Positions 3,483-40,169 of a stretch of 64,000 nt of DNA are shown piece by piece; position 1 is the stretch's first letter; every line of letters begins with the position of its first letter. Under the pieces are notes generated by a model. The model had not been told where the DNA came from and made no database searches. It saw only the letters and a program-made list of their open reading frames with translations. The stretch comes from Teichococcus coralli (GTDB taxonomy: Bacteria; Pseudomonadota; Alphaproteobacteria; Acetobacterales; Acetobacteraceae): the NCBI RefSeq assembly GCF_009829925.1, contig NZ_SNVJ01000008.1:1-64000 (forward strand), read 5' to 3'. The position numbers and the translations under genes were made by a program.

Positions 3483-5207
3483 ATGGCCGAGCATCAATGG
3501 GACAAGTCGCGCCTGCCGAGCCGCCATGTGACGGTCGGCCCGGAGCGCGCCCCGCACCGCTCCTACTACTATGCCATGGGCATGACGGAGGAGGAGATCG
3601 CCCAGCCGCTGGTGGGTGTCGCCACCTGCTGGAACGAGGCGGCGCCCTGCAACATCGCGCTCAGCCGGCAGGCGCAGAGCGTGAAGCTCGGGGTGAAGCA
3701 TGCCGCCGGCACGCCGCGCGAGTTCACCACCATCACCGTGACCGACGGCATCGCCATGGGCCACCAGGGCATGAAGTCCTCGCTGGCCAGCCGCGACGCC
3801 ATCGCCGACACGGTGGAGCTGACCATGCGCGGCCACTGCTATGACGCGCTGGTCGGCCTCGCGGGCTGCGACAAGTCCCTGCCGGGCATGATGATGGCCA
3901 TGCTGCGGCTGAACGTGCCCAGCGTCTTCATGTATGGCGGCTCGATCCTGCCCGGGAAGTTCAAGGGTCGTGACGTGACGGTGGTGGACGTCTTCGAGGC
4001 GGTCGGCCAGCACGCCGCCGGCAACATGTCGGACGAGGACTTGCACGCGCTGGAATGCGTGGCCTGCCCGAGCGCCGGCGCCTGCGGCGGCCAGTTCACT
4101 GCCAACACCATGGCGACCGTCTCGGAGGCGATCGGCCTGGCGCTGCCAGGCTCCGCCGGCGCCCCCGCGCCCTACGAGGACCGCGACAAGTGGGCGGTGG
4201 AATCCGGCAGGGCGGTCATGGAGCTTCTGAAAAAGAACATCCGCCCGCGCGACATCGTCACGAAGGAGTCGCTCTACAACGCGGCGCTGATCGTCGGCGC
4301 CACCGGCGGCTCGACCAACGCCGGCCTGCACCTGCCGGCCATGGCGCATGAGGCCGGCATCAGCTTCACGCTGCAGGACGTGGCCGAGATCATGCGCAAG
4401 GCGCCCTATATCGGCGACCTCAAGCCCGGCGGCCGCTACGTGGCCTTTGACGTCTACAAGATCGGCGGCATCCCGGTGATCGTGAAGGCGCTGCTCGATG
4501 CCGGCCTGCTGCATGGCGACTGCCTCACCGTCACCGGCCAGAGCCTGGCGGAGAACCACCGCGAGGTGATCTTCCCAAAGGACCAGGACGTCATCCGCCC
4601 GGTTTCCGACCCGATCTCGCCGACCGGCGGCGTGGTCGGCCTGCAGGGCAACCTCGCCCCGGACGGCGCCATCGTGAAGATCGCCGGCATGAAAAACCTG
4701 CGCTTCGAGGGCACGGCGCTCTGCTTCGACTGCGAGGAGGACGCCTTCAAGGCGGTGGACCAGCGCGCCTACAAGGAGGGCGACGTCATCATCATCCGCT
4801 ACGAGGGCCCGAAGGGCGGCCCCGGCATGCGGGAGATGCTCTCCACCACGGCCGCCATCTACGGCCAGGGCATGGGGGACAAGGTGGCGCTGATCACCGA
4901 TGGACGCTTCTCCGGCGCCACGCGCGGCTTCTGCATCGGCCATGTCGGGCCGGAGGCGGCGGTGGGCGGACCGATCGGCCTGCTGAAGGACGGCGACCGC
5001 ATCGTCATCGACGCCGCGAAGGGCAGCATCGACGTGCTGATCTCCAACGAGGAGATGGCGAAGCGCCGCGCCGCCTGGCAGCCACGCAGGACGGACTACA
5101 ACTCGGGCGCGCTTTGGAAATATGCGCAGACCGTTGGACCAGCCTATCTCGGCGCCGTCACCCATCCCGGTGGGGCGGCCGAGACGCATTGCTACGCCGA
5201 CATCTGA
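3483..5207 (+). CDS. ilvD: Dihydroxy-acid dehydratase
   Basis: Dehydrates 2,3-dihydroxy-isovalerate and 2,3-dihydroxy-3-methylvalerate in branched-chain amino acid synthesis; a cytoplasmic Fe-S enzyme. It has 574 residues, matching the shorter IlvD subclass. The three conserved cysteine regions are present: CWNEAAPC near residue 50, GCDKS near 128 and [11 protein letters not shown] near 200. The C-terminal [15 protein letters not shown] block is also present. The start ATG is preceded by GAGAAGGGT and gives [20 protein letters not shown], the typical N-terminus. A longer in-frame ATG at 3369 lies inside the inverted repeat and is rejected. The gene stands alone, flanked by intergenic regions of more than 200 bp. 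Confidence 0.96.
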
Positions 5208-5216
5208 GGATGCGCC

Positions 5217-5235
5217 TGTTACCGGGGCGGTAACA
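5217..5235. promoter_or_regulatory. 8-bp perfect dyad just after ilvD
   Basis: TGTTACCG-GGG-CGGTAACA begins 9 bases after the ilvD stop. The perfect 8-bp stem with a 3-nt loop could be part of a transcription terminator, but no T tract follows. The symmetric TGTTACC/GGTAACA halves also look like a protein-binding operator. Apart from this dyad, 5236-5417 shows nothing recognisable. Confidence 0.4.
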
Positions 5236-5417
5236 CGCTGCCCCGGTTTGTCACGCTCCCGCCCCGGCTTCGCCATGCTTCCCGCCGAAGCTGACTGCGT
5301 CGCCGGTGCAGGCCTCGGGCCGCCGCTGGCGGCGCGGAGGGGAAGGGCCGTGCCGGCCGCGCGGATCCCCATTTGCGGGACCGGCGCTGCCGCCCCTACC
5401 GCCGCGCCGGTGAGGGG

Positions 5418-6185
5418 TCAGGCCAGGTCCACCATGACCGGCGCGTGGTCCGAAGGCTGTTCCTGCGCGCGCGTCGCCGTGTCCACGGAGGCGGCGGTCA
5501 GCCGCTCCGCCAGATCCGGCGACAGCAGGGCATGGTCGATCCGCAGGCCGCGGTTGCCCTCGAAGGCCGGGCCATAGTCCCAGTAGGTGTAGATCCGCTC
5601 CGCCGGATGCAGCGCCCGCACCGCGTCGGTCAGGCCAAGGTGCAGCAGGGCATTGTAGGCGGCGCGGCTCTCCGGGCGGACCAGCGCGTCGGTCGGCGGC
5701 ATGGCGCCGGGCGGCGAGTCCAGCGGGCCGGGGCAGACGTTGAAGTCGCCCAGGATGGCGAAGGGCAGGAAGCTGTCCAGCCGATCGGCGGCCAGGAGGC
5801 GCAGCCGCTCCATCCACCGCAGCTTGTAGGCGAAGCCTTCGGCCCCGCCGGAATTGCCGTTGGGCAGGTAGATGCCGGCGAAGCGGCCGCCTTCCGCCGC
5901 CACCTCGATATAGCGCGCATGCTCGTCGGCACTCTCGCCAGGCAGTTCCTCCGCCACCACCTCGAAGGGCACCCGGGAGAGCACGGCGACGCCGTTGCGG
6001 CCGCCCGGCTGGCCCACCGCATGAACGCGGTAGCCGAGACCATCCAGTTCGCCCGCCGGGAACTCCTCGGTGCGGCACTTCAGCTCCTGGAGAAACAGCA
6101 GGTCGGGCTGGGCGGCTTGCAGGAAACGGCGCAGATGCGGCACGCGCTTGCGCACCGAATTCACGTTGAAGCTGGCGAGGCGCAC
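5418..6185 (-). CDS. xthA: Exodeoxyribonuclease III / AP endonuclease
   Basis: A 255-residue member of the EEP nuclease family that cleaves abasic sites and trims DNA 3' ends in base-excision repair. Catalytic motifs are visible: FNVNSVRKR at the N-terminus, QELK with the metal-binding Glu34, YLPNG near residue 108, GDFNVCP near 145, IDHALLS, and the terminal SDHAPV (Asp246/His247). The start is a GTG at 6185, 15 bases after the erpA stop, with no clear ribosome binding site, so translation probably depends on erpA. The dgt/erpA/xthA neighbourhood recurs in alphaproteobacteria. Confidence 0.94.
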   Translation of the reverse strand: MRLASFNVNSVRKRVPHLRRFLQAAQPDLLFLQELKCRTEEFPAGELDGLGYRVHAVGQPGGRNGVAVLSRVPFEVVAEELPGESADEHARYIEVAAEGGRFAGIYLPNGNSGGAEGFAYKLRWMERLRLLAADRLDSFLPFAILGDFNVCPGPLDSPPGAMPPTDALVRPESRAAYNALLHLGLTDAVRALHPAERIYTYWDYGPAFEGNRGLRIDHALLSPDLAERLTAASVDTATRAQEQPSDHAPVMVDLA

Positions 6186-6200: not shown

Positions 6201-6554
6201 TCAGCCGATGGAGAAGGAGGCGCCGCAGCCGCAGCCCGAGGCCGCCTGCGGGTTCCGGATGGCGAAATGCGCCCCGATCAACTCATCCGCCCAGTCCAGC
6301 TCGCCGCCGGCGAGCAGGTCGAGGCTGACAGGGTCGATCATCACGCGGGTTCCGCCGCCCTCCAGCACCAGGTCGTCCGCGGCCGGGCCGTCCTCAAGCT
6401 GGAAGGAATACTGGAAGCCGGAGCAGCCCCCGGCCAGCACGGCCACGCGCAGCCCGGCCTGCGGGCGGCCCTCTCGGGCGGCGATCTCGGCCACCTGGGC
6501 GAAGGCGCCCGGCGTGACGCGGAAGGCGGGGGCAGGCGTGGTGCCGTCGGGCAT
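6201..6554 (-). CDS. erpA: Iron-sulfur cluster insertion protein (A-type carrier, ErpA/IscA family)
   Basis: A 117-residue A-type Fe-S carrier that receives clusters from the assembly scaffold and passes them to apo-proteins. The three ligand cysteines are present: Cys44 in GGCSGFQY, and Cys108 and Cys110 in SGCGCGASF. It is upstream of and probably cotranscribed with xthA. It has a good ribosome binding site (AAGGAG, 8 nt before the ATG) and a well-placed candidate promoter. ErpA rather than IscA is chosen because there are no isc or suf genes around it and because ErpA next to dgt is usual in this class; the sequence alone does not separate the subfamilies firmly. Confidence 0.88.
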   Translation of the reverse strand: MPDGTTPAPAFRVTPGAFAQVAEIAAREGRPQAGLRVAVLAGGCSGFQYSFQLEDGPAADDLVLEGGGTRVMIDPVSLDLLAGGELDWADELIGAHFAIRNPQAASGCGCGASFSIG

Positions 6555-27167: not shown

Positions 27168-29467
27168 AGCGCCTGGCCAGCCGGTTCGGCGAGAACCGCC
27201 CCTCGCTCTTCCGGCGCATCCTGGATGCGCTGCTGGGGCGGGGCGTGACCATCGCCCTGGCGGTCGGCGCGCTGCTGCTCGGCATCGGCACCTTCACCCT
27301 GCTTTCGGGGGGCAGCCCCTTCGGCCCGACCAGGCCCGGCCAGGTGGTGGCCATGGTGCTGGTCAACGCCGTCTTCCTGCTGCTGCTGGCCGTCTCGCTG
27401 ATCGCCCGTCTGGTGCGCGTCTGGGCGGAGCGGCGGCGCGGCTCGGCCGGCTCGCGGCTGCATGTGCGGCTGGTGATGCTGTTCAGCGTCGTCGCCGTGG
27501 TGCCGGCGCTGCTGGTGGCCGTCTTCGCCGCCGTGTTCTTCAACCTGGGAATCCAGGCCTGGTTCAGCGATCGCGTGCGGGAAACGCTGGAGGCCAGCCT
27601 TGTCGCCTCCCGCGCCTACCTGGACGAGCATCGCAACACGATCCGCGCCGACGCGCTGGCCATGGCGGCGGACCTGAACCGCGCCGGCCGGCTGCTCGAC
27701 ACCAACCAGTACGGCTTCGCGCAGATCCTCGCCACGCATACGATGCTGCGGGGACTGACCGACTCCGTGGTGTTCGACCCGGTGACCGGCCGCGTCGTCT
27801 CGCATGCCGGCCTGACCACCACGCCGGTGCTGTCGCCCCTGCCTGCCTGGGCGATGGATCTGGCGCGCAACGGCGACGTGGCTGTTTTGCCCGGCGAGTC
27901 GGAGGAGGGGCGGGTCCGCGCCCTGATCGAGCTGGACATCATGCCAGGCCTGATGTTGCTGATCGACCGGCCGGTGGATCCCAGCGTCATCGAGCACATG
28001 AAGCGCACCGAGCGCGCCTTCCAGGCCTACGACCAGCTCGACCGCAACCGTTCCGGCCTGCAGATCACCTTTGCGATGATCTTCGCCATCGCCGCGCTGC
28101 TGGTGCTGATGGCGGCGGTGCTGATCGGCCTGGTCATCGCCAACCAGATCGCCCGGCCGCTCGCCCGCCTGATCGTCGCGGCCGACCGCGTGCGCTCCGG
28201 CGATCTCTCGGTGCGGGTGACCGAGAGTGAGGCGGATGACGAGGTCGGCACGCTTTCGCGCGCCTTCAACCGCATGACCAACCAGCTTGCCGCCCAGCGC
28301 AGCGAACTGATGGAGGCCTATCGGCAGATCGACGAGCGGCGGCGCTTCACCGAGACGGTGCTGGCCGGCGTCTCGGCCGGCGTTGTCGGGCTGGACACCG
28401 AGGGCCGCATCAACCTGCCCAACCGCAGCGCCAGCGAGTTGCTGGGGCGCGACCTCAGCACCGAGCTGGGCCACCGGCTGGCCGAGGTGGTGCCCGAGTT
28501 CGCGCCCTTGCTGGAGGCGGCCCTGGCCACGCCCGAGCGGCCGCAGACAGGCGAGATCCGCATCGGCCCGGCCAGCGAGCGGCGCTCGCTGCTGGCACAG
28601 GTCGGGGCCGAGCTGCAGCGCGGGCAGGTGGTTGGCTTCGTGCTGACCTTCGACGACATCACCGAGCTGCTTTCCGCCCAGCGCAAGGCGGCCTGGGCCG
28701 ACGTGGCGCGGCGCATCGCGCACGAGATCAAGAATCCGCTCACCCCGATCCAGCTTTCCGCCGAGCGGCTGAAGCGCCGCTACCTCAAGGAGATCCAGTC
28801 CGACCCGGATACCTTCAAGTCCTGCACCGACACCATTGTGCGGCAGGTCGAGGATATCGGGCGGATGGTGGACGAGTTCTCCGCCTTCGCGCGCATGCCG
28901 CAGCCGGTGATCCGGCCGGAGCCGGTCGGCCAGGTTGCGCGGGAGGCCCTTATCCTCCAGCAGCACGCGCATCACGATATTGTTTATACGACAAAAATTC
29001 CCGCGGACGCGCCCCGCGTCGCGTGCGACCGCCGCCTGATCGGGCAGGCGCTGACCAATCTGCTCGCCAACGCCGCCGATGCCGTGGCGATGCGCCGCGC
29101 GGCGGAAGCCGTTGAAGCAGCGGAGCCGCCCCCAGGGCAGATCGCGCTTTCGGTCGAGGTTGGAGAGGACTGGGTCGCGCTCGCGGTGGAAGATGACGGC
29201 GTCGGCCTGCCGCAGGGCGAGGAACGGGCCCGGCTGACGGAGCCCTATGTCACACATAAAGCAAAAGGGACTGGCCTTGGTCTTGCCATCGTCAAGAAGA
29301 TCATGGAGGACCACGGAGGAAGGCTGGTGCTGACCGAGCGGCATGACGCCGGGGGAGGACCACTGCCGGGCGCCAGGGCGGCGCTGCTGCTGCCAAGGCG
29401 CGGTGAGCTGGAATCCGGAACAGAGATGGCGGCAAAAAGCACGGAGATGCAGCAGCATGGCGCATGA
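27164..29467 (+). CDS. ntrY: Membrane sensor histidine kinase NtrY
   Basis: A 767-residue sensor. The N-terminus has three hydrophobic spans (about 28-50, 58-84 and 99-130), then an extracytoplasmic region to about 300. A fourth span (about 302-328), HAMP, PAS, a HisKA box [19 protein letters not shown] (His about 520) and an ATPase domain ([27 protein letters not shown]) follow. In alphaproteobacteria NtrYX responds to nitrogen or redox/oxygen state. The GTG start overlaps the ntrC stop. The end overlaps ntrX by 11 bases. The last third contains AT-rich patches and a looser codon choice than its neighbours. Confidence 0.93.
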
Positions 29468-30857
29468 TATCCTGATCGTCGATGACGAGCCGGACATCCG
29501 CGCGCTGATCGAGGGCATTCTTTCGGACGAGGGCTACGAGACGCGCGTCGCGCAGAATTCCGACACCGCGCTCGCCGCCTTCCGCGCCCGCCGGCCCAGC
29601 CTCGTCATCCTGGATATCTGGCTGCAGAACTCGCGTCTGGACGGCCTCGGCATCCTGGAGGCGATGCAGCGCGAGGAGCCCAAGGTGCCGGTGGTCATGA
29701 TCTCCGGCCACGGCACGATCGAGACGGCGGTGCAGGCGATCCAGCAGGGCGCCTACGACTTCATCGAGAAGCCCTTCAAGTCCGACCGGCTGCTGCTGAT
29801 CGCCGAGCGGGCGTTGGAAGCCGCGCGGCTGAAGCGCGAGGTGAGCGAGCTGAAGCTGCGCGCCGGCGCGGAAACCGAGCTTCTGGGCACCTCCTCGTTG
29901 ATTTCCCAGCTCCGGACCGCCATCGAGCGGGTGGCGCCCACTGGCAGCCGCGTGCTGATCTCCGGGCCGGCCGGCGCCGGCAAGGAAGTGGCGGCGCGCA
30001 TGATCCATGCCCGCTCGCGCCGCGCCGCGGAGCCCTTCGTCGCCCTGAACTGCGCCACCCTCAATCCGGCGCGCTTCGAGGAGGAGCTGTTCGGCATCGA
30101 GTCCGGCAACGACCCGCAGGCGCCGCCGCGCCGTGCCGGCGTGCTGGAGCGCGCCCATGGCGGCACGCTGCTGCTGGACGAGGTGGCGGACATGCCGCTG
30201 GAGACCCAGGGCAAGATCGTCCGCGCGCTGCAGGAACAGGGCTTCGAGCGCGTCGGCGGCGCGACCCGGGTGAAGGTGGACGTGCGCGTCATCGCCACCA
30301 CCAACCGCGACCTCGCGGCCGAGATCGCCGCCGGGCGCTTCCGGGAGGACCTCTACTACCGCCTCGCCGTGGTGCCGCTGCGCGTGCCGGCGATGCGCGA
30401 GCGGCGGGAGGACGTGCCGCTGCTCGCCCGCTACTTCATGGCGCGCACCGCCGAGACCTCCGGCGTGCCGGCGCGCGAGCTGTCGGAGGACGTGCTGGCC
30501 GCCATGCAGGCCTACGACTGGCCGGGCAACGTCCGCCAGCTCCGCAACCTCGTGGACTGGCTGCTGATCATGGCGCCGGGCGGCCCGGGCGAGGCGATCC
30601 GGCCGGAGATGCTGCCGCCCGAGGTGGGCGCCGCCGCGCCAGCCGCGCTGAAGCTCGACCGCTCCTCCGAGATCATGACGCTCCCGCTGCGCGAGGCGCG
30701 GGAGCTGTTCGAGCGGCAGTACCTGGAGGCGCAACTGCTGCGCTTCGGCGGCAACATCAGCCGCACCGCCAACTTCGTCGGCATGGAGCGCAGCGCGCTG
30801 CACCGCAAGCTGAAGTTCCTCGGCGTGCAGGCCGAGGACCGCGCCGTGCAAGGCTGA
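29457..30857 (+). CDS. ntrX: Response regulator NtrX (AAA+ type, GAFTGA loop missing)
   Basis: A 466-residue NtrC-family regulator paired with NtrY. The receiver domain has IVDDEPDIR, a phospho-acceptor Asp near residue 52 (VILDIWLQ) and Lys in IEKPFKS. The AAA+ domain has a Walker A GPAGAGKE and Walker B GTLLLDEVADMP. Between them, where NtrC has GAFTGA, the sequence reads FGIESGNDPQAPPRRAGVLE. A sigma-54 interaction is therefore unlikely, as is known for NtrX of several alphaproteobacteria. A Fis-type HTH ends it (GGNISRTANFVGMERSALHRKL). The start ATG lies within the end of ntrY. Confidence 0.93.
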   Translation: MAHDILIVDDEPDIRALIEGILSDEGYETRVAQNSDTALAAFRARRPSLVILDIWLQNSRLDGLGILEAMQREEPKVPVVMISGHGTIETAVQAIQQGAYDFIEKPFKSDRLLLIAERALEAARLKREVSELKLRAGAETELLGTSSLISQLRTAIERVAPTGSRVLISGPAGAGKEVAARMIHARSRRAAEPFVALNCATLNPARFEEELFGIESGNDPQAPPRRAGVLERAHGGTLLLDEVADMPLETQGKIVRALQEQGFERVGGATRVKVDVRVIATTNRDLAAEIAAGRFREDLYYRLAVVPLRVPAMRERREDVPLLARYFMARTAETSGVPARELSEDVLAAMQAYDWPGNVRQLRNLVDWLLIMAPGGPGEAIRPEMLPPEVGAAAPAALKLDRSSEIMTLPLREARELFERQYLEAQLLRFGGNISRTANFVGMERSALHRKLKFLGVQAEDRAVQG

Positions 30858-30944
30858 GGAAAGCGCGGCCGGGGCATTGCTCCGCCGCTTCCGCGGCGCG
30901 AAGCTGCGCCTCCCCATCGTGAGCAGCAGGAAGAGACTCGGGGC

Positions 30945-31817
30945 ATGTCCCGCATCGCCTATGTGAATGGCCGTTATCTCCCCCAGCGCGAGGCCAGCGT
31001 GAACGTCGAGGATCGCGGCTATCAGTTCGGCGATGGCATCTACGAGGTGGTGCACCTCTACGACGGCCGCTTCATCGACGAGGACCGCCATCTCGACCGC
31101 CTCGAACGCTCCCTGCGGGAGATCCGCCTCCCCATGCCGATGCCGCGGCAGGCGCTCTCCCATGTTCTGAACGAGGTCGCGCGCAGGAACCGGGTGCGGG
31201 AAGGCCTGCTCTACATGCAGGTGACGCGCGGCGTGGCGCGGCGCGACCATCCGTTCCCCGCGCAGCCGGTGCCGCCGGCCCTGGTGGTGACGGTGAAGCG
31301 CATCGCGCCCTACCCGGCCACCATCGACAACTGGAGCGGCGCGGCGATCACCCTGCCGGACCTGCGCTGGGCGCGCCGCGACATCAAGACCACGAACCTG
31401 CTGCCCAACGTGCTGGCGCGCCAGGCAGCGCGGGAGCAGGGCGCCATCGAGGCGATCCTCTACGAGGAGGACAGCGGCCTCGTCACCGAGGGTGCGGCGA
31501 CCAACTTCTGGATCGTGGACGAGAACGGCGCCATCCGCACCCGTCCGCTCTCGCACGACATCCTGCCGGGCTGCACCCGCGGCGCGCTGATGGCCGAGCT
31601 GAAGCAGGCCGGCATCCCCTTCGAGGAGCGTCCCTTCACGCGGGACGAGCTGAAGCGCGCCCGCGAGGCCTTCATCACCTCCGCCACCTCCTTCGTGAAG
31701 CCAATCGTGACGATCGACGGCGCGCCGGTCGGCGACGGCAAGCCCGGCCCGGTCGCGCGGCGGCTCTTCGAGCTGTTCGCCCGGCACGTGAAGGGCGGCG
31801 TGAAGAACGCGGCGTGA
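30945..31817 (+). CDS. dat: D-amino-acid transaminase
   Basis: A fold type IV PLP enzyme of 290 residues. D-alanine aminotransferases of this group supply D-glutamate and D-alanine for peptidoglycan. The N-terminus VNGRYLPQREASVNVEDRG and the GDGIYEVV motif are characteristic. The PLP lysine is Lys148 in RRDIKTTNLL. SGLVTEGAATNFWI and HDILPGCTRG bind the cofactor phosphate. Branched-chain aminotransferases share the fold, but VNVEDRGYQFGDG and IKTTNLLPNVLA favour Dat. It lies 87 bases after ntrX and overlaps the next gene by 4 bases. Dat between ntrX and hfq is a conserved order. Confidence 0.88.
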   Translation: MSRIAYVNGRYLPQREASVNVEDRGYQFGDGIYEVVHLYDGRFIDEDRHLDRLERSLREIRLPMPMPRQALSHVLNEVARRNRVREGLLYMQVTRGVARRDHPFPAQPVPPALVVTVKRIAPYPATIDNWSGAAITLPDLRWARRDIKTTNLLPNVLARQAAREQGAIEAILYEEDSGLVTEGAATNFWIVDENGAIRTRPLSHDILPGCTRGALMAELKQAGIPFEERPFTRDELKRAREAFITSATSFVKPIVTIDGAPVGDGKPGPVARRLFELFARHVKGGVKNAA

Positions 31818-32488
31818 GCGCCCCGGCGCTGCCGGTCCCCCAGGCCATCCTGTGGGACTGGGACAACACGCTGGTGGATGCCTGGGGCGGCGTGCAGGCT
31901 GGCATGAACGCCGCGCTGCGCGCCTTCGGCCTGCCCGAATGGTCCCTGGAGGAAGTGCGCGCCCGTGCTCGGCTTTCGCTGCGGGACGCCTTTCCCGCCA
32001 TCTTCGGCGCCGAATGGGAGCGCGCGCGGGAACTGTTCTACGCCGAGGTCCGCGCGCGCCACCTGGAGTTCCTGACGCCGCTCGACGGCATCGGCAATGC
32101 GCTCGAAGCGGCGGCGCCCTGGCCGCTGGGCGTGGTTTCCAACAAGCAGGGACCGATCCTGCGGCGGGAGGCGTCGCATCTTGGCTGGGACATCCGCTTC
32201 GGCGCGCTGGTCGGGGCAGGGGACGCCGCCGCCGACAAGCCGGCCGCCGCTCCGGTGCTGATGGCGCTGGAGCGGCTCGGTGTCGCGCCCGGGCCGGCGG
32301 TCTGGTTCATCGGCGACACCGGCGTGGACATGCAGGCGGCGCGCGCGGCTGGCTGCAGTGCGGTGCTGCTTGGCGATGCCGCGCATGACGGCGGCGTGGC
32401 CGCGCTGGCGCCGGACCGGGTTTTCACCGACGCGCATGTGCTTGCCGAATACCTGCGCGGCCTTGCCAAGACCCCCCGCCTTGCATGA
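31814..32488 (+). CDS. HAD-superfamily phosphatase, phosphoglycolate phosphatase-like
   Basis: A 224-residue haloacid dehalogenase-fold hydrolase with a helical cap of subclass I type (about residues 25-90). The nucleophile motif is WDWDNTLVD. The Ser/Thr motif is VVSNKQG. The Lys is in ADKPAAAP and the acidic motif in [12 protein letters not shown]. It resembles Gph-type phosphatases that clear 2-phosphoglycolate made during DNA repair or photorespiration, but HAD substrates cannot be read from sequence. The GTG start overlaps the dat stop (GTGA). Confidence 0.82.
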
Positions 32489-32603
32489 TCTTGCGGGCGA
32501 ACCGGCGGGCAGCCTGCTCGCCGGGGCGGAGCCCTGTGCATGCCCGCGTGATCGCGCCGGTGGCCCTAAAATGGGCCCGCCAAGAAAAAGAAGGACCGAG
32601 CCT

Positions 32604-32948
32604 ATGGCCGCCGAGAAGTCCCAGAATGTTCAGGACGTGTTCCTGAACCATGTCCGCAAGAGCAAGACGCCGGTGACCATCTTCCTGGTCAACGGCGTGA
32701 AGCTGCAGGGCATCATCACCTGGTTCGACAATTTTTCCGTTCTGCTGCGTCGGGACGGGCACACGCAGCTGGTCTATAAGCACGCCATCAGCACCGTGAT
32801 GCCGGGTGCGCCGATCACGCTGTTCGATGCCTCCTCCACCACCGGAGCGGCTGCCGCGGCACCCGCCGCCGGCGGCTCGGTGAACGTGAGCCGGAGCGGA
32901 ACCATGACGATGCAACGCGAGGCCAATCCTGTCGGCACCCCCGAGTAA
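32604..32948 (+). CDS. hfq: RNA chaperone Hfq
   Basis: An Sm-like hexameric protein that pairs small RNAs with mRNAs. It has 114 residues. The Sm1 motif ([20 protein letters not shown], then [18 protein letters not shown]) and Sm2 motif ([11 protein letters not shown]) are complete. A disordered Ala/Gly/Ser-rich tail of about 40 residues follows, longer than in Rhizobium. The binding site is AAGAAGGAC. A possible -10 TAAAAT (32567-32572) sits inside a GGCCC/GGGCC dyad, but no good -35 element accompanies it, so the 115-bp upstream gap gives only a hint of a promoter. Confidence 0.96.
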
Positions 32949-32988
32949 CGCCGGCGAAGCACGAAGCGGCAAGCCGACGCTTGCCGCC

Positions 32989-34281
32989 GTGCTGCTGCCG
33001 TATGAGCGCCCGACCCGCCCGGCGGGCGCCGAAGGCCTTGTCACCTTGCACGATGCCCGCTTCGCCAGCCGCGCCGCCGAGGCGCGCCTGGCGGAGGCGG
33101 TCGGCCTCGCGGCATCCATCGGCGTGACGGTGGTGCACAGCGCGGTCCTGCCGCTGCGCAGCCGTCGCCCCGCCACGCTGCTGGGCGAAGGGCAGGTGGA
33201 GATGGTGAAGGGCGCCATCGAGGAAAACCAGGTCGGCGTGGTGGTGGTGGATGCGGCCCTTTCGCCGGTCCAGCAGCGCAACCTGGAGCGGGCCTGGGCC
33301 TGCAAGGTCATCGACCGCACCGGGCTGATCCTGGAGATTTTCGGTGAGCGCGCCCGCACCAAGGAAGGCACACTGCAGGTCGAGCTGGCCCACCTGGAAT
33401 ACCAGCGCACGCGGCTTGTACGATCCTGGACGCACCTCGAGCGCCAGCGGGGCGGCTTCGGCTTCCTTGGCGGCCCCGGCGAGAGCCAGATCGAGATCGA
33501 CCGCCGGCTGATCGGCGAGCGCATCGTCAAGCTCAAGAAAGAGCTTGAGCAGGTGCGCCGCACGCGGGGCCTGCACCGGGCGGCGCGTACCCGCGTGCCG
33601 TTCCCGGTGGTGGCGCTGGTGGGCTACACCAACGCCGGCAAGTCCACGCTGTTCAACGCGCTCACCGGCGCCGGCATCTACGCGCAGGACCAGCTCTTCG
33701 CGACGTTGGACCCCACCATGCGGGCGATCCGGCTGCCCAGCGGGCGCACGATCATCCTCTCCGACACGGTGGGCTTCATCAGCGACCTGCCGACGCAGCT
33801 GATCGAGGCTTTCCGCGCCACGCTGGAGGAAGTGGCCTCGGCCGACATCATCCTGCACGTGCGGGACGTCGCGCATCCGGACAGCGCCTCCCAGCGCGCC
33901 GACGTGATCGGCGTGCTGACCGAAATGGCCTCGGGACCGCACCCCACGCTCGACGAGAACTGGCCGCAACGCACCATCGAGGTGCTGAACAAGGCCGACC
34001 TGCTTGGCGGCGCGGCGGCCGTGCCGGGCGCGGACGCCGCGAACTCGGTGGTGGTTTCGGCGCTGACGGGCGAGGGACTGGACGCGCTGCGGGGCGCGCT
34101 GGACGCCCGCCTCGCCGCGGGCATGGAGACGGTGGAGTACGCGATTCCGCCGGCGGACGGCGCGCGGCTGGCTTGGCTCTACCAGCACGGCGAAGTGCTC
34201 ACCCGCGCCGACAGCGATGACACCATCCGACTGACCGTGCGGCTTTCTCCGGCCGACCGCGCCCGCTTCGAGCAATCCTGA
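32989..34281 (+). CDS. hflX: GTPase HflX
   Basis: A ribosome-associated GTPase of 430 residues that splits stalled or heat-damaged ribosomes. The N-terminal HflX domain shows LLGEGQVEMVKG and FGERARTKEGTLQVELAHLEYQRTRL. The GTPase domain has G1 GYTNAGKS (about 212-219), G3 DTVGF and G4 NKAD. The catalytic Gln of Ras is replaced by Phe after DTVG, as in all HflX. The first available start in this frame is the GTG at 32989, 40 bases after hfq; an in-frame stop at 32905 excludes anything longer beyond the hfq end. hfq-hflX is a conserved pair. Confidence 0.94.
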   Translation: MLLPYERPTRPAGAEGLVTLHDARFASRAAEARLAEAVGLAASIGVTVVHSAVLPLRSRRPATLLGEGQVEMVKGAIEENQVGVVVVDAALSPVQQRNLERAWACKVIDRTGLILEIFGERARTKEGTLQVELAHLEYQRTRLVRSWTHLERQRGGFGFLGGPGESQIEIDRRLIGERIVKLKKELEQVRRTRGLHRAARTRVPFPVVALVGYTNAGKSTLFNALTGAGIYAQDQLFATLDPTMRAIRLPSGRTIILSDTVGFISDLPTQLIEAFRATLEEVASADIILHVRDVAHPDSASQRADVIGVLTEMASGPHPTLDENWPQRTIEVLNKADLLGGAAAVPGADAANSVVVSALTGEGLDALRGALDARLAAGMETVEYAIPPADGARLAWLYQHGEVLTRADSDDTIRLTVRLSPADRARFEQS

Positions 34282-34297
34282 CCGCAACGAGGACCCG

Positions 34298-35125
34298 ATG
34301 CGCTTCTCCTCCAGCCTGGCGACCGACATCGCCGTCCTTCTGCGCGATGCGGCGCAGGCGGAGATCAAGCCGCGCTTCCGGCGTCTCGCCAGCGGTGCCA
34401 TTCGCACCAAGACCAGCATCACCGACCTGGTGACGGATGCGGACGAAGCGGCGGAGCGGCGCATCACCGCCGAGCTGACGTCGCGCTTTCCCGGCTGCGT
34501 GGTAGTGGGCGAGGAAGCCACGGCCGCCGACCCCGCCATTCTCAGCCGACTGTCCGGTGCCGACCTGGCCTTCGTGGTGGACCCGGTGGACGGCACGGCC
34601 AACTTCGCCGCCGGCGTGCCGCTCTTCGGCTGCATGGCGGCGGCGGTGGCCCAGGGCGAGGTCGTCGCCTCCTGGATTTACGACCCCATGGGCGACGACA
34701 CCGCGATCGCGCTGCGCGGGGAGGGTGCCTGGATCGAGGCGCCGGATGGCCATCGCACGGACCTGCATGTCGCGCCCGCCGTGCCGGTGGAGCAGATGAT
34801 CGCCGGCATTTCCTGGACCTACATCGCCGAGCCCTGGAAGAGCCGGCTTACCGCCCGGATGCCACGTCTGGCCGGCGGGGTTCACTTCCGTTGCGCGGCG
34901 CATGAGTACCGGCTGGTCGCCTCCGGCGGCGCCCATGCCGTGCTCTACAACCGGCTGATGCCCTGGGACCACCTGCCGGGCTGGCTGCTGCACCAGGAGG
35001 CAGGTGGCTACAGCGCCCGCTTCGACGGCAGCCCCTACCGGCCCGAGCACACCGGCGGCGGCCTGCTCGCCGCACCGGACCGGGATAGCTGGATGGCTTT
35101 GAAGGCGGCCCTGCTGGACGACTGA
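34298..35125 (+). CDS. Inositol monophosphatase family protein
   Basis: A Mg-dependent phosphatase of the IMPase fold, 275 residues. Metal and substrate motifs are VVGEEAT, VDPVDGTANFAAG and the C-terminal MPWDHLPGWLLHQEAGG. Family members act on inositol phosphate, histidinol phosphate, 3'-phosphoadenosine 5'-phosphate or fructose bisphosphate. The sequence alone does not decide, and no his or cys genes are nearby. It follows hflX by 16 bases and is probably the last gene of the ntr-hfq transcript. It is convergent with mazG across a GC hairpin. Confidence 0.87.
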   Translation: MRFSSSLATDIAVLLRDAAQAEIKPRFRRLASGAIRTKTSITDLVTDADEAAERRITAELTSRFPGCVVVGEEATAADPAILSRLSGADLAFVVDPVDGTANFAAGVPLFGCMAAAVAQGEVVASWIYDPMGDDTAIALRGEGAWIEAPDGHRTDLHVAPAVPVEQMIAGISWTYIAEPWKSRLTARMPRLAGGVHFRCAAHEYRLVASGGAHAVLYNRLMPWDHLPGWLLHQEAGGYSARFDGSPYRPEHTGGGLLAAPDRDSWMALKAALLDD

Positions 35126-35171: not shown

Positions 35172-35969
35172 TCAGCTGTCCTTGCGCTCGGCCGCCTTCA
35201 CCCGCTGCCAGGTGGCTTCCATCTCGTCCAGCCCGACATCCGGAAGGCTCTGGCCTTCGGCGGTCAGCCGCGCCTCCATGGCGTTGAAGCGGCGCTCGAA
35301 CTTGGCGTTGGCTGCACGCAGGCAGGCTTCCGGGTCCAGGTCCAGCTTGCGCGCCAGGTTGACCATCACGAAGAGCATGTCGCCCAGTTCGTCGGCCATG
35401 CGCTCCGGCGCGGCGCCAGGAAGCTCGGCGCGCAACTCGGCGACTTCCTCCACCAGCTTGTCCAGCACCGCGTCCGGGTCCGGCCAGTCGAAGCCCACCC
35501 GGGCGGCGCGGCGCGCCAGCTTGTTGGCGCGGGTGAGGGCGGGCAGGGCGGGCGGAATGCCGGCCAGGGTGCCGGTCTCCGCCCGGGCGGCGCGCTCGGC
35601 CTGCTTCTGCACCTCCCAGGCGGCGTTCTGCTGGGCCGTGTCGCGCGCGTCCGCCGCGCCGAAGACATGCGGATGCCGGCGGATCATCTTGTCCGAGATG
35701 GTGCGCGCTACCGCGGCAAAGTCGAAGGCGCCGGCCTCCTGTGCCATCTGCGCGTGATAGACGACCTGGAACAGCAGGTCGCCCAACTCGTCCTGCAGCG
35801 CCGGCATGTCGCCGCGCGCGATGGCGTCGGCGACCTCATAGGCTTCCTCGATCGTATAGGGGGCGATGGTGTCGAAGCTCTGCTCGCGGTCCCAGGGGCA
35901 GCCATCCGGCGCCCGCAGGCGGGCCATGATGGAAAGCAGGCGCGACAGGGCGGGGGCGGCGTCATCCAT
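35172..35969 (-). CDS. mazG: Nucleoside triphosphate pyrophosphohydrolase MazG
   Basis: An all-alpha NTP pyrophosphatase of 265 residues that hydrolyses (d)NTPs to monophosphates and sanitises the nucleotide pool. Two MazG repeats are visible, each with an EEAYE/ExxD metal site: YTIEEAYEVADAI with LQDELGDLLFQVV (about residues 36-70), and KLVEEVAELRAEL with MADELGDMLFVMV (about 175-215). The segment MARLRAPDGCPWDREQSFDTI is the family N-terminus. The ATG at 35969 is preferred over the in-frame one at 35999. It is separated from the upstream MBL gene by 67 bp, within which lies the dif-like site. Confidence 0.94.
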   Translation of the reverse strand: MDDAAPALSRLLSIMARLRAPDGCPWDREQSFDTIAPYTIEEAYEVADAIARGDMPALQDELGDLLFQVVYHAQMAQEAGAFDFAAVARTISDKMIRRHPHVFGAADARDTAQQNAAWEVQKQAERAARAETGTLAGIPPALPALTRANKLARRAARVGFDWPDPDAVLDKLVEEVAELRAELPGAAPERMADELGDMLFVMVNLARKLDLDPEACLRAANAKFERRFNAMEARLTAEGQSLPDVGLDEMEATWQRVKAAERKDS

Positions 35970-36003
35970 GCCAGGATCTCCGGGCGGCAGCCGGCGCACC
36001 CGA

Positions 36004-36031
36004 ATGCCGCATAAGAAATATTATGTAAAAG
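36004..36031 (+). other. dif: dif-like XerC/XerD recombination site (probable chromosome dimer resolution site)
   Basis: A 28-bp site with the architecture of bacterial dif: left 11-mer ATGCCGCATAA, 6-bp spacer GAAATA, right 11-mer TTATGTAAAAG. Against the E. coli site, the inner seven bases of the XerC arm (CGCATAA) are identical and the XerD arm matches 9 of 11 (TTATGTTAAAT). The inner CATAA...TTATG forms the expected dyad. It is the most AT-rich point of the region, between two genes. Supporting context comes from two switches here. Gene orientation changes from mainly plus to mainly minus. GGGNAGGG octamers lie on the plus strand at 850, 5340, 16058, 20479, 22143, 25558, 32214, 34718 and 35541, and on the minus strand at 39521, 40083, 40754, 42570, 42727, 47215, 53437 and 62864. 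One left-side exception is on minus (17262). KOPS elements read by FtsK point toward dif in just this way. Confidence 0.85.
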
Positions 36032-36036
36032 AAACC

Positions 36037-36831
36037 TCAGCCGACATGCAGCACCAGGCCGTCATGGGCCGGCTCGATCCCGGCCGGCAGGTTCGCCTGC
36101 ATCCAGGCCCAATCCATGTCATGGCCCATATGGGTCAGCACGGTCCGGCGCGGCCGCAACCGGTCCACCCATTCCAGCACCTGGTCCAGGTTGGCGTGCA
36201 CCGGATGCGGGCGGCGCTGAAAGCAATCCACAATCCAGGTGTCCAGCCCTTCAAGCTGCTCCAGGCTTTCCTCGGGCATGTTGACCACGTCGGTCGAATA
36301 CGCGAAGTCGCCGATGCGAAGGCCCAGCGTCTCCATGACCTTGTGGTCCTGGCGCAGCAGCCGGATGGGAAGCCCGGCGATCTCCACCACCTGCCCGGCC
36401 TGGATGACAACCGGCTCCAGCGCCGGCCGGAAGAAGGTCGGCGCCGTCGAAGGCCGGAAGGCATAGTCGAAGCGGGCCTGCAGCGTCTCCAGCGTTTCCG
36501 GCGTGGCGAAAACCGGGATCACGGCGCCGAGCGCCCGGTTCAGTGGCCGGAACTCGTCCAGGCCCATGATGTGGTCGGCATGACCGTGGGTGACGAGCAG
36601 CGCATCGACCACGCTGATCCTGCTGGCCAGCAACTGCCGCCGCAGGTCCGGCCCGGAATCCACCAGCAGCCGTCGCCCATCCGGCCCTTCGATCAGGATG
36701 GAGGACCGGCTGCGCTCGTTGCGTGTCTCCTCCGGATCGCAGGCGCCCCAGTCGCCGCCGCCATCCGGGCCGCCCAGCATCGGAACGCCGGCCGAACCGC
36801 CGCAGCCGAGGACGGTGACCTTCAGGCCCAA
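36037..36831 (-). CDS. MBL-fold metallo-hydrolase (PhnP / RNase Z-like)
   Basis: A metallo-beta-lactamase fold hydrolase of 264 residues. The metal motif THGHADHIMGLDEFRPLN gives HxHxDH, with further ligands in HDLK-like and THMGHD segments near the C-terminus. The N-terminus VTVLGCGGSAGVPMLGG resembles the PhnP/COG1235 group, which cleaves cyclic phosphodiesters or related bonds. The substrate here is unknown, and its constant place after tatD in alphaproteobacteria does not reveal it. The best start is a TTG at 36831, 4 bases after the tatD stop; no ATG or GTG is available nearby, so translation is probably coupled to tatD. Confidence 0.85.
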   Translation of the reverse strand: MGLKVTVLGCGGSAGVPMLGGPDGGGDWGACDPEETRNERSRSSILIEGPDGRRLLVDSGPDLRRQLLASRISVVDALLVTHGHADHIMGLDEFRPLNRALGAVIPVFATPETLETLQARFDYAFRPSTAPTFFRPALEPVVIQAGQVVEIAGLPIRLLRQDHKVMETLGLRIGDFAYSTDVVNMPEESLEQLEGLDTWIVDCFQRRPHPVHANLDQVLEWVDRLRPRRTVLTHMGHDMDWAWMQANLPAGIEPAHDGLVLHVG

Positions 36832-36835
36832 GGCT

Positions 36836-37606
36836 CTACGCCGCCTTCCGGAACAGGCGGTGGAAGTTGGCCGTGGTCCGCTCGGCCAGTTCCTCCGGGC
36901 TCCAGCCGCGCACCTCCGCCAGCACGCGCGCGGTGTGCGCGACATAGGAGGGTTCGTTGCGCTTGCCGCGGAACGGCACCGGCGCGAGGTAGGGCGCGTC
37001 CGTCTCCACCAGGATGCGGTCCTCCGGCATGTCGCGGGCGATCTCCCGGAGCTCGGCGGACTTCGGAAAGGTCAGGATGCCGGAGAAGGAGACGTATCCA
37101 CCCATTTCTACCGCATCTTCAGCGAGTTGGCGCGTCGAGCTGAAGCAGTGAAGCAGAAGCGGAAAGTCGCCGCTCTCGCGCTCCTCGCGCAGAATGGCGC
37201 TGATATCCGCATCGGCGTCCCGGGCATGAATCACCAGCGGCAGGCCGGTCTCGCGCGCGGCGCGGATGTGTCGGCGGAAGCCCTCCTGCTGCACCGCGCG
37301 CGGCGCCTTGTCATAGAAGTAGTCGAGCCCGCTCTCGCCAATGCCGATGATGCGCGGATGCTCGGCTGCCGCGACGATCTCGGCCACCTCGGGCAGAGGT
37401 CCCTCGCCCGCGTTCTGCGGATGCACGCCCACGGTGCCCCAAACCTGCGGAAACCGCTCCGCCAGCGCCTTCACCGCCTCCGCCTGCCCCATGCGGACGC
37501 CGATCGTCACCATCCGTCCGACGCCAGCCTCGGCGGCGCGGCGCAGGATCTCCTCGATTTCCGCCTCGGTGTAGTAGTCGAGATGGCAGTGGCTATCGAC
37601 CAGCAT
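36836..37606 (-). CDS. tatD: TatD-family metal-dependent hydrolase / DNase
   Basis: A TIM-barrel hydrolase of 256 residues. Metal ligands are visible in VDSHCHLD (HxH at the N-terminus), GIGESGLDY (Glu), VIHARDAD (His), LLHCFSS (His) and VETDAPYLAP (Asp). TatD proteins act as 3'-5' exonucleases in repair and quality control; despite the name they are not part of the Tat translocase. The ATG overlaps the metG stop (ATGA), so translation is coupled. Confidence 0.92.
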   Translation of the reverse strand: MLVDSHCHLDYYTEAEIEEILRRAAEAGVGRMVTIGVRMGQAEAVKALAERFPQVWGTVGVHPQNAGEGPLPEVAEIVAAAEHPRIIGIGESGLDYFYDKAPRAVQQEGFRRHIRAARETGLPLVIHARDADADISAILREERESGDFPLLLHCFSSTRQLAEDAVEMGGYVSFSGILTFPKSAELREIARDMPEDRILVETDAPYLAPVPFRGKRNEPSYVAHTARVLAEVRGWSPEELAERTTANFHRLFRKAA

Positions 37607-39153
37607 CAGGCGGGTTCACCCTGGATCTTCTGGAAGAGCGGGCTGGGCGGCGGCAGCGGCGTGCCGCCGGGCAGCGGCGTCGCCAGGGCCTCCAGCCCGC
37701 GCGCCTCCGCCGGCACGGCGAGCTGGTCCAGCAGCTTCGCCATGGTGTCCGGCATGAAGGGCTGAAGCAGCGTCGCGAAGACGCGCAACGCGTCATGCAG
37801 GGTCCGCAGCACCACGCGCATCCGCTCCGGGTCGGTCTTCTTCAACGCCCAGGGCTGCTCGCGGGTGATGTAGCCGTTGGCCTCGCGGATCGCGGCGAAG
37901 ACCTGCGCCAGCGCGGCATCGAACTTCTGCTGGTCCAGCAGCCCGCCCACCGCCGCCGAAAGCTCGGCATGGCCGGCAAGGGCAACGAATTCGCGGTCCG
38001 CCTCGCTGGTGACGGCGGCAGGCTCCGGCAGCCGGCCCTCGCAGTTGCGCTGAAGCAGGCTCAGCGTGCGGTTTGCCAGGTTGCCCAGCGCGTCGGCCAG
38101 CTCGCCGTTCAGCCGCCCCACCAGCGCCTTGCGCTGGAAGTCGCCATCCTGGCCGAAGGGCACCTCACGCAGCAGGAAGAAGCGCACGGGATCGAGCCCG
38201 AACTCCTCCACCAGCGCCAGCGGGTCGATCACGTTGCCCAGCGACTTCGAGATCTTCTGCCCCTCGTTGGTCCACCAGCCATGCGCGAAGACGCGCTTCG
38301 GCGTTGGAAGATCGGCGGCCATCAGGAAGGCGGGCCAGTAGATCGCGTGGAAGCGCAGGATGTCCTTGCCGACGAAATGCACGTCCGCCGGCCAGAACTT
38401 CCAGAGCGACGCGTTTTCATCGGGATAGCCGAGCGCGGTGATGTAGTTCGTCAGCGCGTCGAGCCAGACGTACATCACATGCGCCTCGTCTCCCGGCACC
38501 TTCACGCCCCACCTGAAGGAGGTGCGGGAGATCGAGAGGTCGTTCAGCCCGCCCTTGACGAAGCTGATCACCTCGTTGCGCCGGCTGGCCGGGGCGATGA
38601 AGTCCGGGTTTGCGTCATAGAAGGCGAGCAGGCGATCCTGCCATTCGGAGAGGCGGAAGAAGTAGGAAGGCTCCCTCACCCACTCCACCGGCGCGCCGGT
38701 CGGCGCGAATTTCTGGCCGTCCTTGTCGGTGATCTCGTCGGGGCCGTAGAAGGCCTCGTCGCGCACCGCGTACCAGCCCTCGTAGTGGCCGAGATAGATC
38801 TGGCCGCGCTCCTCCAGCCGCTTCCACAGCGCGGCGCAAGCGTCCTTGTGGCGCTCCTCCGTAGTGCGGATGAAGGCGTCATTGGAGTAGTTCATGCGCA
38901 TGGCGAGGTCGCGGAAGGCCTGGCTCACCTGGTCTGTGAAGCTCTGCGGGTCCAGGCCCTTGGCTTCGGCCGCCTTCTCCACCTTCTGGCCGTGCTCGTC
39001 GGTGCCGGTCAGGAAGAAGACCTCATGCCCGGAGAGCCGCTTCCAGCGGGCCAGCACGTCCGCCGCCAGGGAGGTATAGGCGTGGCCGATATGCGGCTTG
39101 TCGTTCACGTAGTAGATGGGCGTCGTCAGGTAGAAGCGCCGCTCGCTCGTCAT
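37606..39153 (-). CDS. metG: Methionine--tRNA ligase
   Basis: A class I synthetase of 515 residues that charges both initiator and elongator tRNA-Met. The HIGH motif is in YVNDKPHIGHAYTSLAAD and the KMSKS motif is KISKSLGN. The insert domain lacks the four-cysteine zinc knuckle of E. coli MetG, and there is no C-terminal dimerisation domain. It therefore belongs to the short, zinc-free form. Two ATGs are possible, 39159 and 39153. The second is better placed relative to GAGG at the end of holB and is chosen. The stop overlaps tatD. Confidence 0.95.
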   Translation of the reverse strand: MTSERRFYLTTPIYYVNDKPHIGHAYTSLAADVLARWKRLSGHEVFFLTGTDEHGQKVEKAAEAKGLDPQSFTDQVSQAFRDLAMRMNYSNDAFIRTTEERHKDACAALWKRLEERGQIYLGHYEGWYAVRDEAFYGPDEITDKDGQKFAPTGAPVEWVREPSYFFRLSEWQDRLLAFYDANPDFIAPASRRNEVISFVKGGLNDLSISRTSFRWGVKVPGDEAHVMYVWLDALTNYITALGYPDENASLWKFWPADVHFVGKDILRFHAIYWPAFLMAADLPTPKRVFAHGWWTNEGQKISKSLGNVIDPLALVEEFGLDPVRFFLLREVPFGQDGDFQRKALVGRLNGELADALGNLANRTLSLLQRNCEGRLPEPAAVTSEADREFVALAGHAELSAAVGGLLDQQKFDAALAQVFAAIREANGYITREQPWALKKTDPERMRVVLRTLHDALRVFATLLQPFMPDTMAKLLDQLAVPAEARGLEALATPLPGGTPLPPPSPLFQKIQGEPA

Positions 39154-39164
39154 GCTCATGGTCC

Positions 39165-40169
39165 TCAGCGCGAGGCCAGCTGCGAGAGCCCGCTCAGCAC
39201 CGCCTGCTTGCGGTCCAGGTTCAGGGTCTCAGTCTCTTCGGCCAGCCGGCCCAGGGTGTCCCACAGGGTGGCCCAGTCGGCAAGCGGGCGGGCGGCGATG
39301 TAGCCCGGTGCCGGCTCGCCACGGGCCGCTGCCCGGATCGCCTCGCCCAGCCCTGCGCGCAGCAGTTCCATGAAGGTGACGAACGCGCTGCCGTCCCGCT
39401 TGGCGGCCAGGGTGTCGGCCAGTTGATGCAGGCCGCGTGGGTCGGGCCTCGGCAGGGCGCCCAGGAAGCTCTCCACCTGCGCCTGAAGGGCAAGCCCATC
39501 CCCTTCGGCGAGCTGCAACGCCCTGCCCGGCGCGCCGCCCGAGATGCGCGCCAGCACCGCGCGTTGCTGCAACTGCAGTTCCGGCAGCCAGCGGCCCAGC
39601 ACCGCCTCCATCTCCGGCTCCGGCAGCGGAAACAGGTCGATGCGGCGGCAGCGGCTGCGGATGGTGGGCAGCAGCCGGTCCGGCGCCGCCGTGGTCAGCA
39701 GCAGCAGCGCGCGCGCCGGCGGCTCCTCCAGTGTCTTGAGCAGGGCGTTCTGCGCCTCGGCATTCATGGCCTCCACCTGCTCGACGATGACGATGCGCCA
39801 GCCACCCTCCGCCGCCGTCAGGCCGAGGAAGCGCGGCACCTGGCGCACCTCGTCCACCCGGATCATCAGCTTGACGCCACGCTCGCCGGCATTCGGCGCC
39901 AGCACGCGCAGGTCCGCATGGCCGCTGGCCGCCACGCGCCGGAACACCGGGTCCTCCGGCGGCACCGCCAGCGGCGGCTGCCCCGGCGGGCGCCCGGCCA
40001 GCAGCCAGCGCGCGAAGCGGTAGGCGAGCGTGGCCTTGCCGACGCCGCGCGGCCCGGCCAGCAGCCAGGCGTGATGCAGGCGCCCTGCCCCCGCCGCCTC
40101 GGCCAGCATCTGCGCGGCGTGGTCGTGCCCGAACAGCTCCGGATTGGCGCGCGGCTCCGGGGGGATCAC
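39165..40169 (-). CDS. holB: DNA polymerase III delta' subunit
   Basis: The clamp-loader subunit delta', 334 residues. An AAA+ fold is visible with a P-loop-like GPRGVGKATLAYRFA, the sensor region AQNALLKTLEEPP, and the SRC motif in TIRSRCRRIDL. It works with DnaX and HolA to load the sliding clamp. The cysteine zinc site of E. coli delta' is absent, as in many alphaproteobacteria. The start is a GTG overlapping the tmk stop (GTGA). Confidence 0.92.
   Translation of the reverse strand: MIPPEPRANPELFGHDHAAQMLAEAAGAGRLHHAWLLAGPRGVGKATLAYRFARWLLAGRPPGQPPLAVPPEDPVFRRVAASGHADLRVLAPNAGERGVKLMIRVDEVRQVPRFLGLTAAEGGWRIVIVEQVEAMNAEAQNALLKTLEEPPARALLLLTTAAPDRLLPTIRSRCRRIDLFPLPEPEMEAVLGRWLPELQLQQRAVLARISGGAPGRALQLAEGDGLALQAQVESFLGALPRPDPRGLHQLADTLAAKRDGSAFVTFMELLRAGLGEAIRAAARGEPAPGYIAARPLADWATLWDTLGRLAEETETLNLDRKQAVLSGLSQLASR

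Follow-up and report, generated by a model that had tools for sequence, protein, structure and literature searches.

A probable chromosomal dif site in Teichococcus coralli lies between mazG and an MBL-fold hydrolase gene, a setting shared across the Alphaproteobacteria

The window that we analyzed covers positions 1 to 64,000 of contig C75 (226,823 bp) from the draft genome of T. coralli (5.02 Mb in 76 contigs). The window contains a gap of 67 bp between the start of mazG and the stop codon of mbl, which encodes an MBL-fold metallo-hydrolase. The right half of this gap is filled by a 28-mer, ATGCCGCATAA-GAAATA-TTATGTAAAAG, at 36004-36031, which consists of two 11-bp halves on either side of a 6-bp center. 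The inner parts of the two halves, CATAA and TTATG, are inverted relative to each other. The 28-mer is 34 bp upstream of the likely start codon (ATG) of mazG and 5 bp downstream of the stop codon of mbl. The initial annotation of this DNA had described this 11-6-11 arrangement, and we found it exactly as described, in a gap of the size claimed. The features of the locus are listed by position, and the octamer that orients the translocase FtsK is abbreviated as KOPS.

1 to 36003, plus strand: left arm; KOPS (GGGNAGGG) 10 times on the plus strand and 2 times on the minus strand
29450 to 35125, plus strand: genes for an ntrX-like regulator, an aminotransferase, a HAD phosphatase, hfq, hflX (above its NCBIfam cut-off), and a cysQ/hisN-like protein
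35172 to 35969, minus strand: mazG, nucleoside triphosphate pyrophosphohydrolase (NCBIfam NF007113, 341.8 bits, cut-off 208)
36004 to 36014, plus strand: probable XerC-side half-site of dif, ATGCCGCATAA (exact sequence)
36015 to 36020, plus strand: probable central hexanucleotide of dif, GAAATA (crossover region); the 6-bp spacing is kept in 19 congeners
36021 to 36031, plus strand: probable XerD-side half-site of dif, TTATGTAAAAG; the best conserved part in congeners
36032 to 64000, minus strand: right arm; all 9 KOPS are on the minus strand, with 58 minus and 6 plus out to 226.8 kb
36037 to 36819, minus strand: mbl; its best NCBIfam matches are MBL-fold hydrolases, below the equivalog cut-offs
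36836 to 39159, minus strand: tatD and metG (NCBIfam TIGR00010 and NF008900, above cut-off)

The run of genes from ntrX to cysQ leads to the 28-mer from the left, and its order is kept in many other members of the class. From the right, tatD and metG form a co-directional run that leads to the 28-mer, and their order is kept in most of the 20 class members that we read in detail. Within mbl, the stop codon is at 36037-36039 and the conserved part is at 36040-36819. We identified hfq and ntrX by reading the translations. (The hfq gene, at 32400-32989 and just upstream of hflX, has a long 5' extension and was skipped by simple ORF scoring.) An Rfam scan of the window gave four tRNAs and nothing else. 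Among all 28-mers of the window, AT content peaks in those that start at 36010-36012. They overlap the 28-mer at 36004-36031, which agrees with its earlier description as the AT-richest point of the region.

The 28-mer had also been said to resemble the half-sites of the dif site of E. coli, where the recombinases XerC and XerD act. Comparison with the published E. coli dif (GGTGCGCATAATGTATATTATGTTAAAT; PMC2731167) bears this out: 19 of 28 positions are identical (7/11 in the XerC arm, 3/6 in the center, and 9/11 in the XerD arm). The XerD half is TTATGTAAAAG here and TTATGTTAAAT in E. coli. Taken alone, this similarity is weak evidence. At 114 kb from the 28-mer, contig C75 has a chance site (C75:149692) that is identical to E. 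coli dif at 18/28 positions, and this site has neither an intact XerD half nor a switch in the strand of KOPS. Because 19/28 is close to this chance level, we did not count the identity to E. coli dif in favor of the assignment, and we sought tests that do not depend on resemblance.

Dif sites of the same form have been published for other alphaproteobacteria: Carnoy and Roten (2009; PMC2731167) predicted dif in Agrobacterium tumefaciens (TAATCGCATAAGATATATTATGGAACTT), Brucella, and Rhodobacter. More broadly, our 28-mer is like the XerCD dif sites of Proteobacteria (PMC2731167; Kono et al. 2011, PMC3025954) in being a single, AT-rich, intergenic site of 28 bp with the 11-6-11 layout, with a variable outer XerC half, a conserved XerD half, and KOPS that converge on it.

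The core of the site, CGCATAA-N6-TTATGTNAAA, has just one exact match in the 5.02-Mb draft (76 contigs, not closed). The next-best matches differ from the core at 3 positions and are as numerous as those of a reversed control pattern. A search of the whole draft for a better dif match found none. Outside of this genome, the core is matched exactly in Oceanibacterium hippocampi (Alphaproteobacteria, Sneathiellales).

Within the genus, the 11-6-11 motif is present in the mbl-mazG gap of all 19 genomes, and the flanking sequences do not align. The XerD arm has 1.72 bits of information per column and its TTATG is invariant across the 19 congeners. In the XerC arm, the inner 7 bases have 1.70 bits per column and the outer 4 have only 0.54. 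The central hexanucleotide always has a length of 6, and its sequence is variable (1.11 bits per column). For comparison, the 30-bp flanks, which were compared without gaps, have just 0.44 and 0.20 bits per column. This matches the pattern that has been described for dif, with the XerD arm best conserved and the outer XerC arm variable (PMC2731167). The proposal that the 28-mer would be conserved upstream of mazG in close relatives held for every congener.

We then considered the chromosome around the site. In E. coli, KOPS point from the origin towards dif. The octamer GGGNAGGG is the KOPS that orients FtsK, and it was reported to be polar in alphaproteobacteria (Azorhizobium; PMC2443382). 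On contig C75, there are 10 plus-strand and 2 minus-strand KOPS to the left of the 28-mer and 6 plus-strand and 58 minus-strand KOPS to its right (Fisher p = 5e-7). If we fit a single change point to these by maximum likelihood, it falls at 35541-39521, which brackets the 28-mer. Also, in an unbiased scan of 1826 octamers for a strand switch at the 28-mer, GGGCAGGG ranked first, with a p value about 100 times stronger than that of the second-ranked octamer. KOPS polarity follows the arm of the chromosome and not the strand of the genes, because the KOPS within plus-strand genes of the right arm are 20 minus and 3 plus.

In a congener (G009), KOPS can be followed along a contig of 3.78 Mb. Its dif is at 2,572,264, in the same mbl-mazG gap. 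In 40 samples of 20 kb, KOPS are on the plus strand up to dif and on the minus strand beyond it. They switch back at about 0.5-0.9 Mb, roughly opposite dif: the point half of the contig away from dif is at 0.68 Mb (which is the opposite point only if the contig is a closed circle). The KOPS of T. coralli are the same octamer and have the same origin-to-dif direction as in Azorhizobium (PMC2443382), with GGGCAGGG as the strongest form. We found no difference from the published alphaproteobacterial KOPS; in T. coralli, the switch is mapped to within 4 kb of dif, although GC skew is almost absent from the genome.

Mean GC skew on C75 is -0.004 to the left of dif and -0.015 to its right, and the cumulative GC skew on this 227-kb contig is weak. 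It is also weak and mixed in G009 (40 samples across the 3.78-Mb contig). In this draft, contig C75 is joined neither to oriC nor to the far end of the left arm. GC skew is nearly uninformative here, and KOPS polarity is the informative test. The strands of the genes also change near the site: a crude gene caller gave 22 plus and 6 minus genes to the left within the window and 15 minus and 6 plus genes to the right. These counts are near those given when a reversal within 1 kb of the site was first noted (25 of 31 plus and 19 of 26 minus). The switch is between cysQ and mazG, 0.85 kb to the left of dif. Over the contig's whole right side, the bias is weaker (77 minus and 48 plus).

The T. coralli draft encodes the proteins that would act at a dif site. 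Its contig C4 encodes the gamma domain of FtsK (97.8 bits, cut-off 30.6). Its contig C14 encodes two full-length Xer recombinases, one XerD-like and one XerC-like, and the gene for the XerD-like protein adjoins a gene that we read as accA. Neither of the two reaches the strict equivalog cut-offs of TIGR02224/TIGR02225, although the XerD-like protein exceeds the cut-off of NF001399.

Because of the polarity of KOPS, the conservation of the motif in 19/19 congeners and across the class (see below), and the presence of xerC, xerD, and ftsK, we conclude that the 28-mer is very probably the chromosomal dif of this alphaproteobacterium (probability about 0.96). This evidence supports the dif-like XerCD site of the initial annotation. 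That annotation also took the site to mark the probable replication terminus, and here just the dif part of the label stands on the evidence above. Dif is where translocation by FtsK converges, and this can differ from the point with the lowest marker frequency, so dif need not be where the forks meet (PMC13342612). We infer that the replication forks also meet near dif.

The XerCD-dif-FtsK pathway is established in E. coli and in Vibrio cholerae (PMC5357621, PMC2533119). By analogy to that pathway, we predict that the 28-mer is bound by the Xer proteins and recombined upon activation by FtsK. XerC would bind the left 11-mer and XerD the right 11-mer. If recombination fuses the sister chromosomes, the resulting dimer would need to be resolved before division. 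FtsK at the closing septum would be loaded on KOPS (GGGNAGGG) and would pump both arms towards dif. This translocation would bring the two copies of dif together, and the gamma domain of FtsK would activate XerD. Strand exchange by XerCD across the 6-bp center would then release two monomers.

The position of the 28-mer, 34 bp upstream of the start of mazG and within a co-directional run of genes, would also suit a regulatory palindrome (an operator or a promoter element of mazG) that is dif-like by chance. But we saw neither a sigma-70-like promoter nor a terminator at the 28-mer, and in four other members of the class (L153, L154, L155, and L157) the motif remains although mazG and mbl are several kb away; in L153, it is 5 kb from mazG and 3 kb from mbl. 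Congeners carry copies of the motif on other contigs, and a regulator of mazG would leave the switch in KOPS unexplained. We consider this explanation to be very improbable. XerCD-using phages and islands integrate at dif in other bacteria (PMC2731167), which raises another alternative: the 28-mer could be the attachment scar or the decoy dif of a mobile element that exploits XerCD (IMEX), and not a working dif. However, the draft has a single site, with no second flanking copy; the neighbors are core genes in a conserved order; and the 28-mer is the point around which the chromosome's KOPS are oriented. A mobile element is just as hard to credit as a regulator of mazG.

Having identified the 28-mer as the likely dif, we asked where dif lies in other Alphaproteobacteria. 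Our search covered 115 genomes of the class and looked for mbl and, with 1 mismatch allowed, for the core of dif. In 54 of the 115 genomes, dif and mbl were on one contig, and our counts for their linkage rest on these. (In another 14 genomes with a match to dif, mbl was on another contig or lacking, and 46 of the 115 had no match to dif at 1 mismatch.) In 20 of the 54 genomes, no more than 200 bp separate dif from the 3' end of mbl; the number rises to 27 genomes for a limit of 1 kb and to 43 for a limit of 10 kb. If dif were placed at random in a 4-Mb genome, fewer than 1 of the 54 would be expected within 10 kb. Where dif is within 10 kb, it is always on the 3' side of mbl (43/43), and almost always on the opposite strand (42/43).

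In all of the regions that we read in detail (20 class members), dif is on the mazG side of mbl. Wherever we detected mazG, dif is between mazG and mbl, even with 3 to 15 kb inserted. The genes on the two sides are also shared by class members: on one side, the ntr regulators, hflX, and other genes are directed towards mazG, and on the other, rlpA-like and dac-like genes, tmk, holB, metG, tatD, and mbl run towards dif. In one genome (G072), mbl is 247 kb from dif, yet mazG is about 1.1 kb from dif. We think it likely that dif, and with it the place where chromosome segregation ends, has been anchored in this neighborhood (ntrX-hfq-hflX on one side, converging on mazG, dif, and mbl-tatD-metG-holB-tmk on the other) since the alphaproteobacterial ancestor.

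In L153, L154, L155, and L157, the 3-15 kb of DNA between mazG, dif, and mbl contains other genes. These may belong to elements that were inserted at dif by XerCD.

Similar linkages are found beyond the class. In family f97, which belongs to another class of the same phylum, dif is directly 5' of mazG in 13/13 genomes (L203-L216), and its orientation is opposite to that in the Alphaproteobacteria. One of these genomes (L204, L216) has the order tatD-dif-mazG. In a third class (12 genomes: the class of G169, L191-L202), metG starts less than 1 kb from dif in 10/12 genomes and less than 5 kb from it in 11/12, and mazG is located away from dif. At eight further loci from other families of the phylum, we found one regulator near dif and none of the other genes of the neighborhood. 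It is a reasonable inference, though not a demonstration, that a metG-tatD-dif-mazG neighborhood is ancestral, and the neighborhood of dif may be older than the Alphaproteobacteria.

Could the linkage of dif, mazG, and mbl reflect a functional need instead of old inheritance? For example, transcription might have to pass through dif, or MazG might be connected with termination. The linkage of dif to mbl in 43/54 genomes of the class would fit with such a need, as would the adjacency of dif to mazG throughout f97 despite the opposite orientation of dif. But in several class members, inserted genes separate dif from mazG or from mbl, which shows that these genes need not adjoin dif. An inherited terminus, held in place by selection on KOPS and on the orientation of genes, explains the data with less. 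We view a functional need as unlikely, and we prefer inheritance as the explanation for the linkage.

Some genomes of the third class have additional sites. Beside metG, three genomes from three families have paired, inverted dif-like sites that are 73-83 bp apart (L194, 1418/1501; L196, 1501/1574; and L201, 1501/1582). If XerCD acted on such a pair, it would invert the stretch between them. Others in this class have an extra XerD-type half-site nearby (as in L193 and L202).

Extra dif-like sites are also found on other contigs of congeners of T. coralli, namely G016, G001 (on its contigs C4 and C5), G008, G010, and G004, mostly with one per contig. In G016, 4 of the 5 contigs (including C1, C2, and C3) have one dif-like site each. 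On its 240-kb contig C3, KOPS switch between 79,999 and 84,917, which brackets the site at 80,631. For its 120-kb contig C1, the second-best fit places a switch at 4,439-6,122, next to the site at 6,421. The contigs with extra sites appear to be secondary replicons that carry a dif of their own, and those of G016 resemble the large secondary replicons with dif and KOPS that were reported recently (PMC13342612, Nat Commun 2026). Unlike those, the T. coralli draft gave no second site: across the 76 contigs, a search with the core found no dif on another replicon above the control level. A diverged dif may be present on another replicon of this draft.

A survey from 2009 described dif as having "no apparent specific genetic environment" (PMC2731167). 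Our data for the Alphaproteobacteria contradict this, as the mazG-dif-mbl setting is shared across the class. In the openly readable literature, we found no paper that links dif to mazG, hflX, or ntrX. So, while this dif is of a known kind, its anchored position appears to be unreported in the openly searchable literature.

The region around the terminus is commonly regarded as the part of a bacterial chromosome that changes fastest. In T. coralli, dif marks the end point of both arms of the chromosome, where GC skew could not. A class-wide position for dif would allow it to be found in draft genomes, by looking beside mazG or mbl. It would also provide a fixed landmark for studying the evolution of the terminus, and a testable case of what holds the terminus in place.
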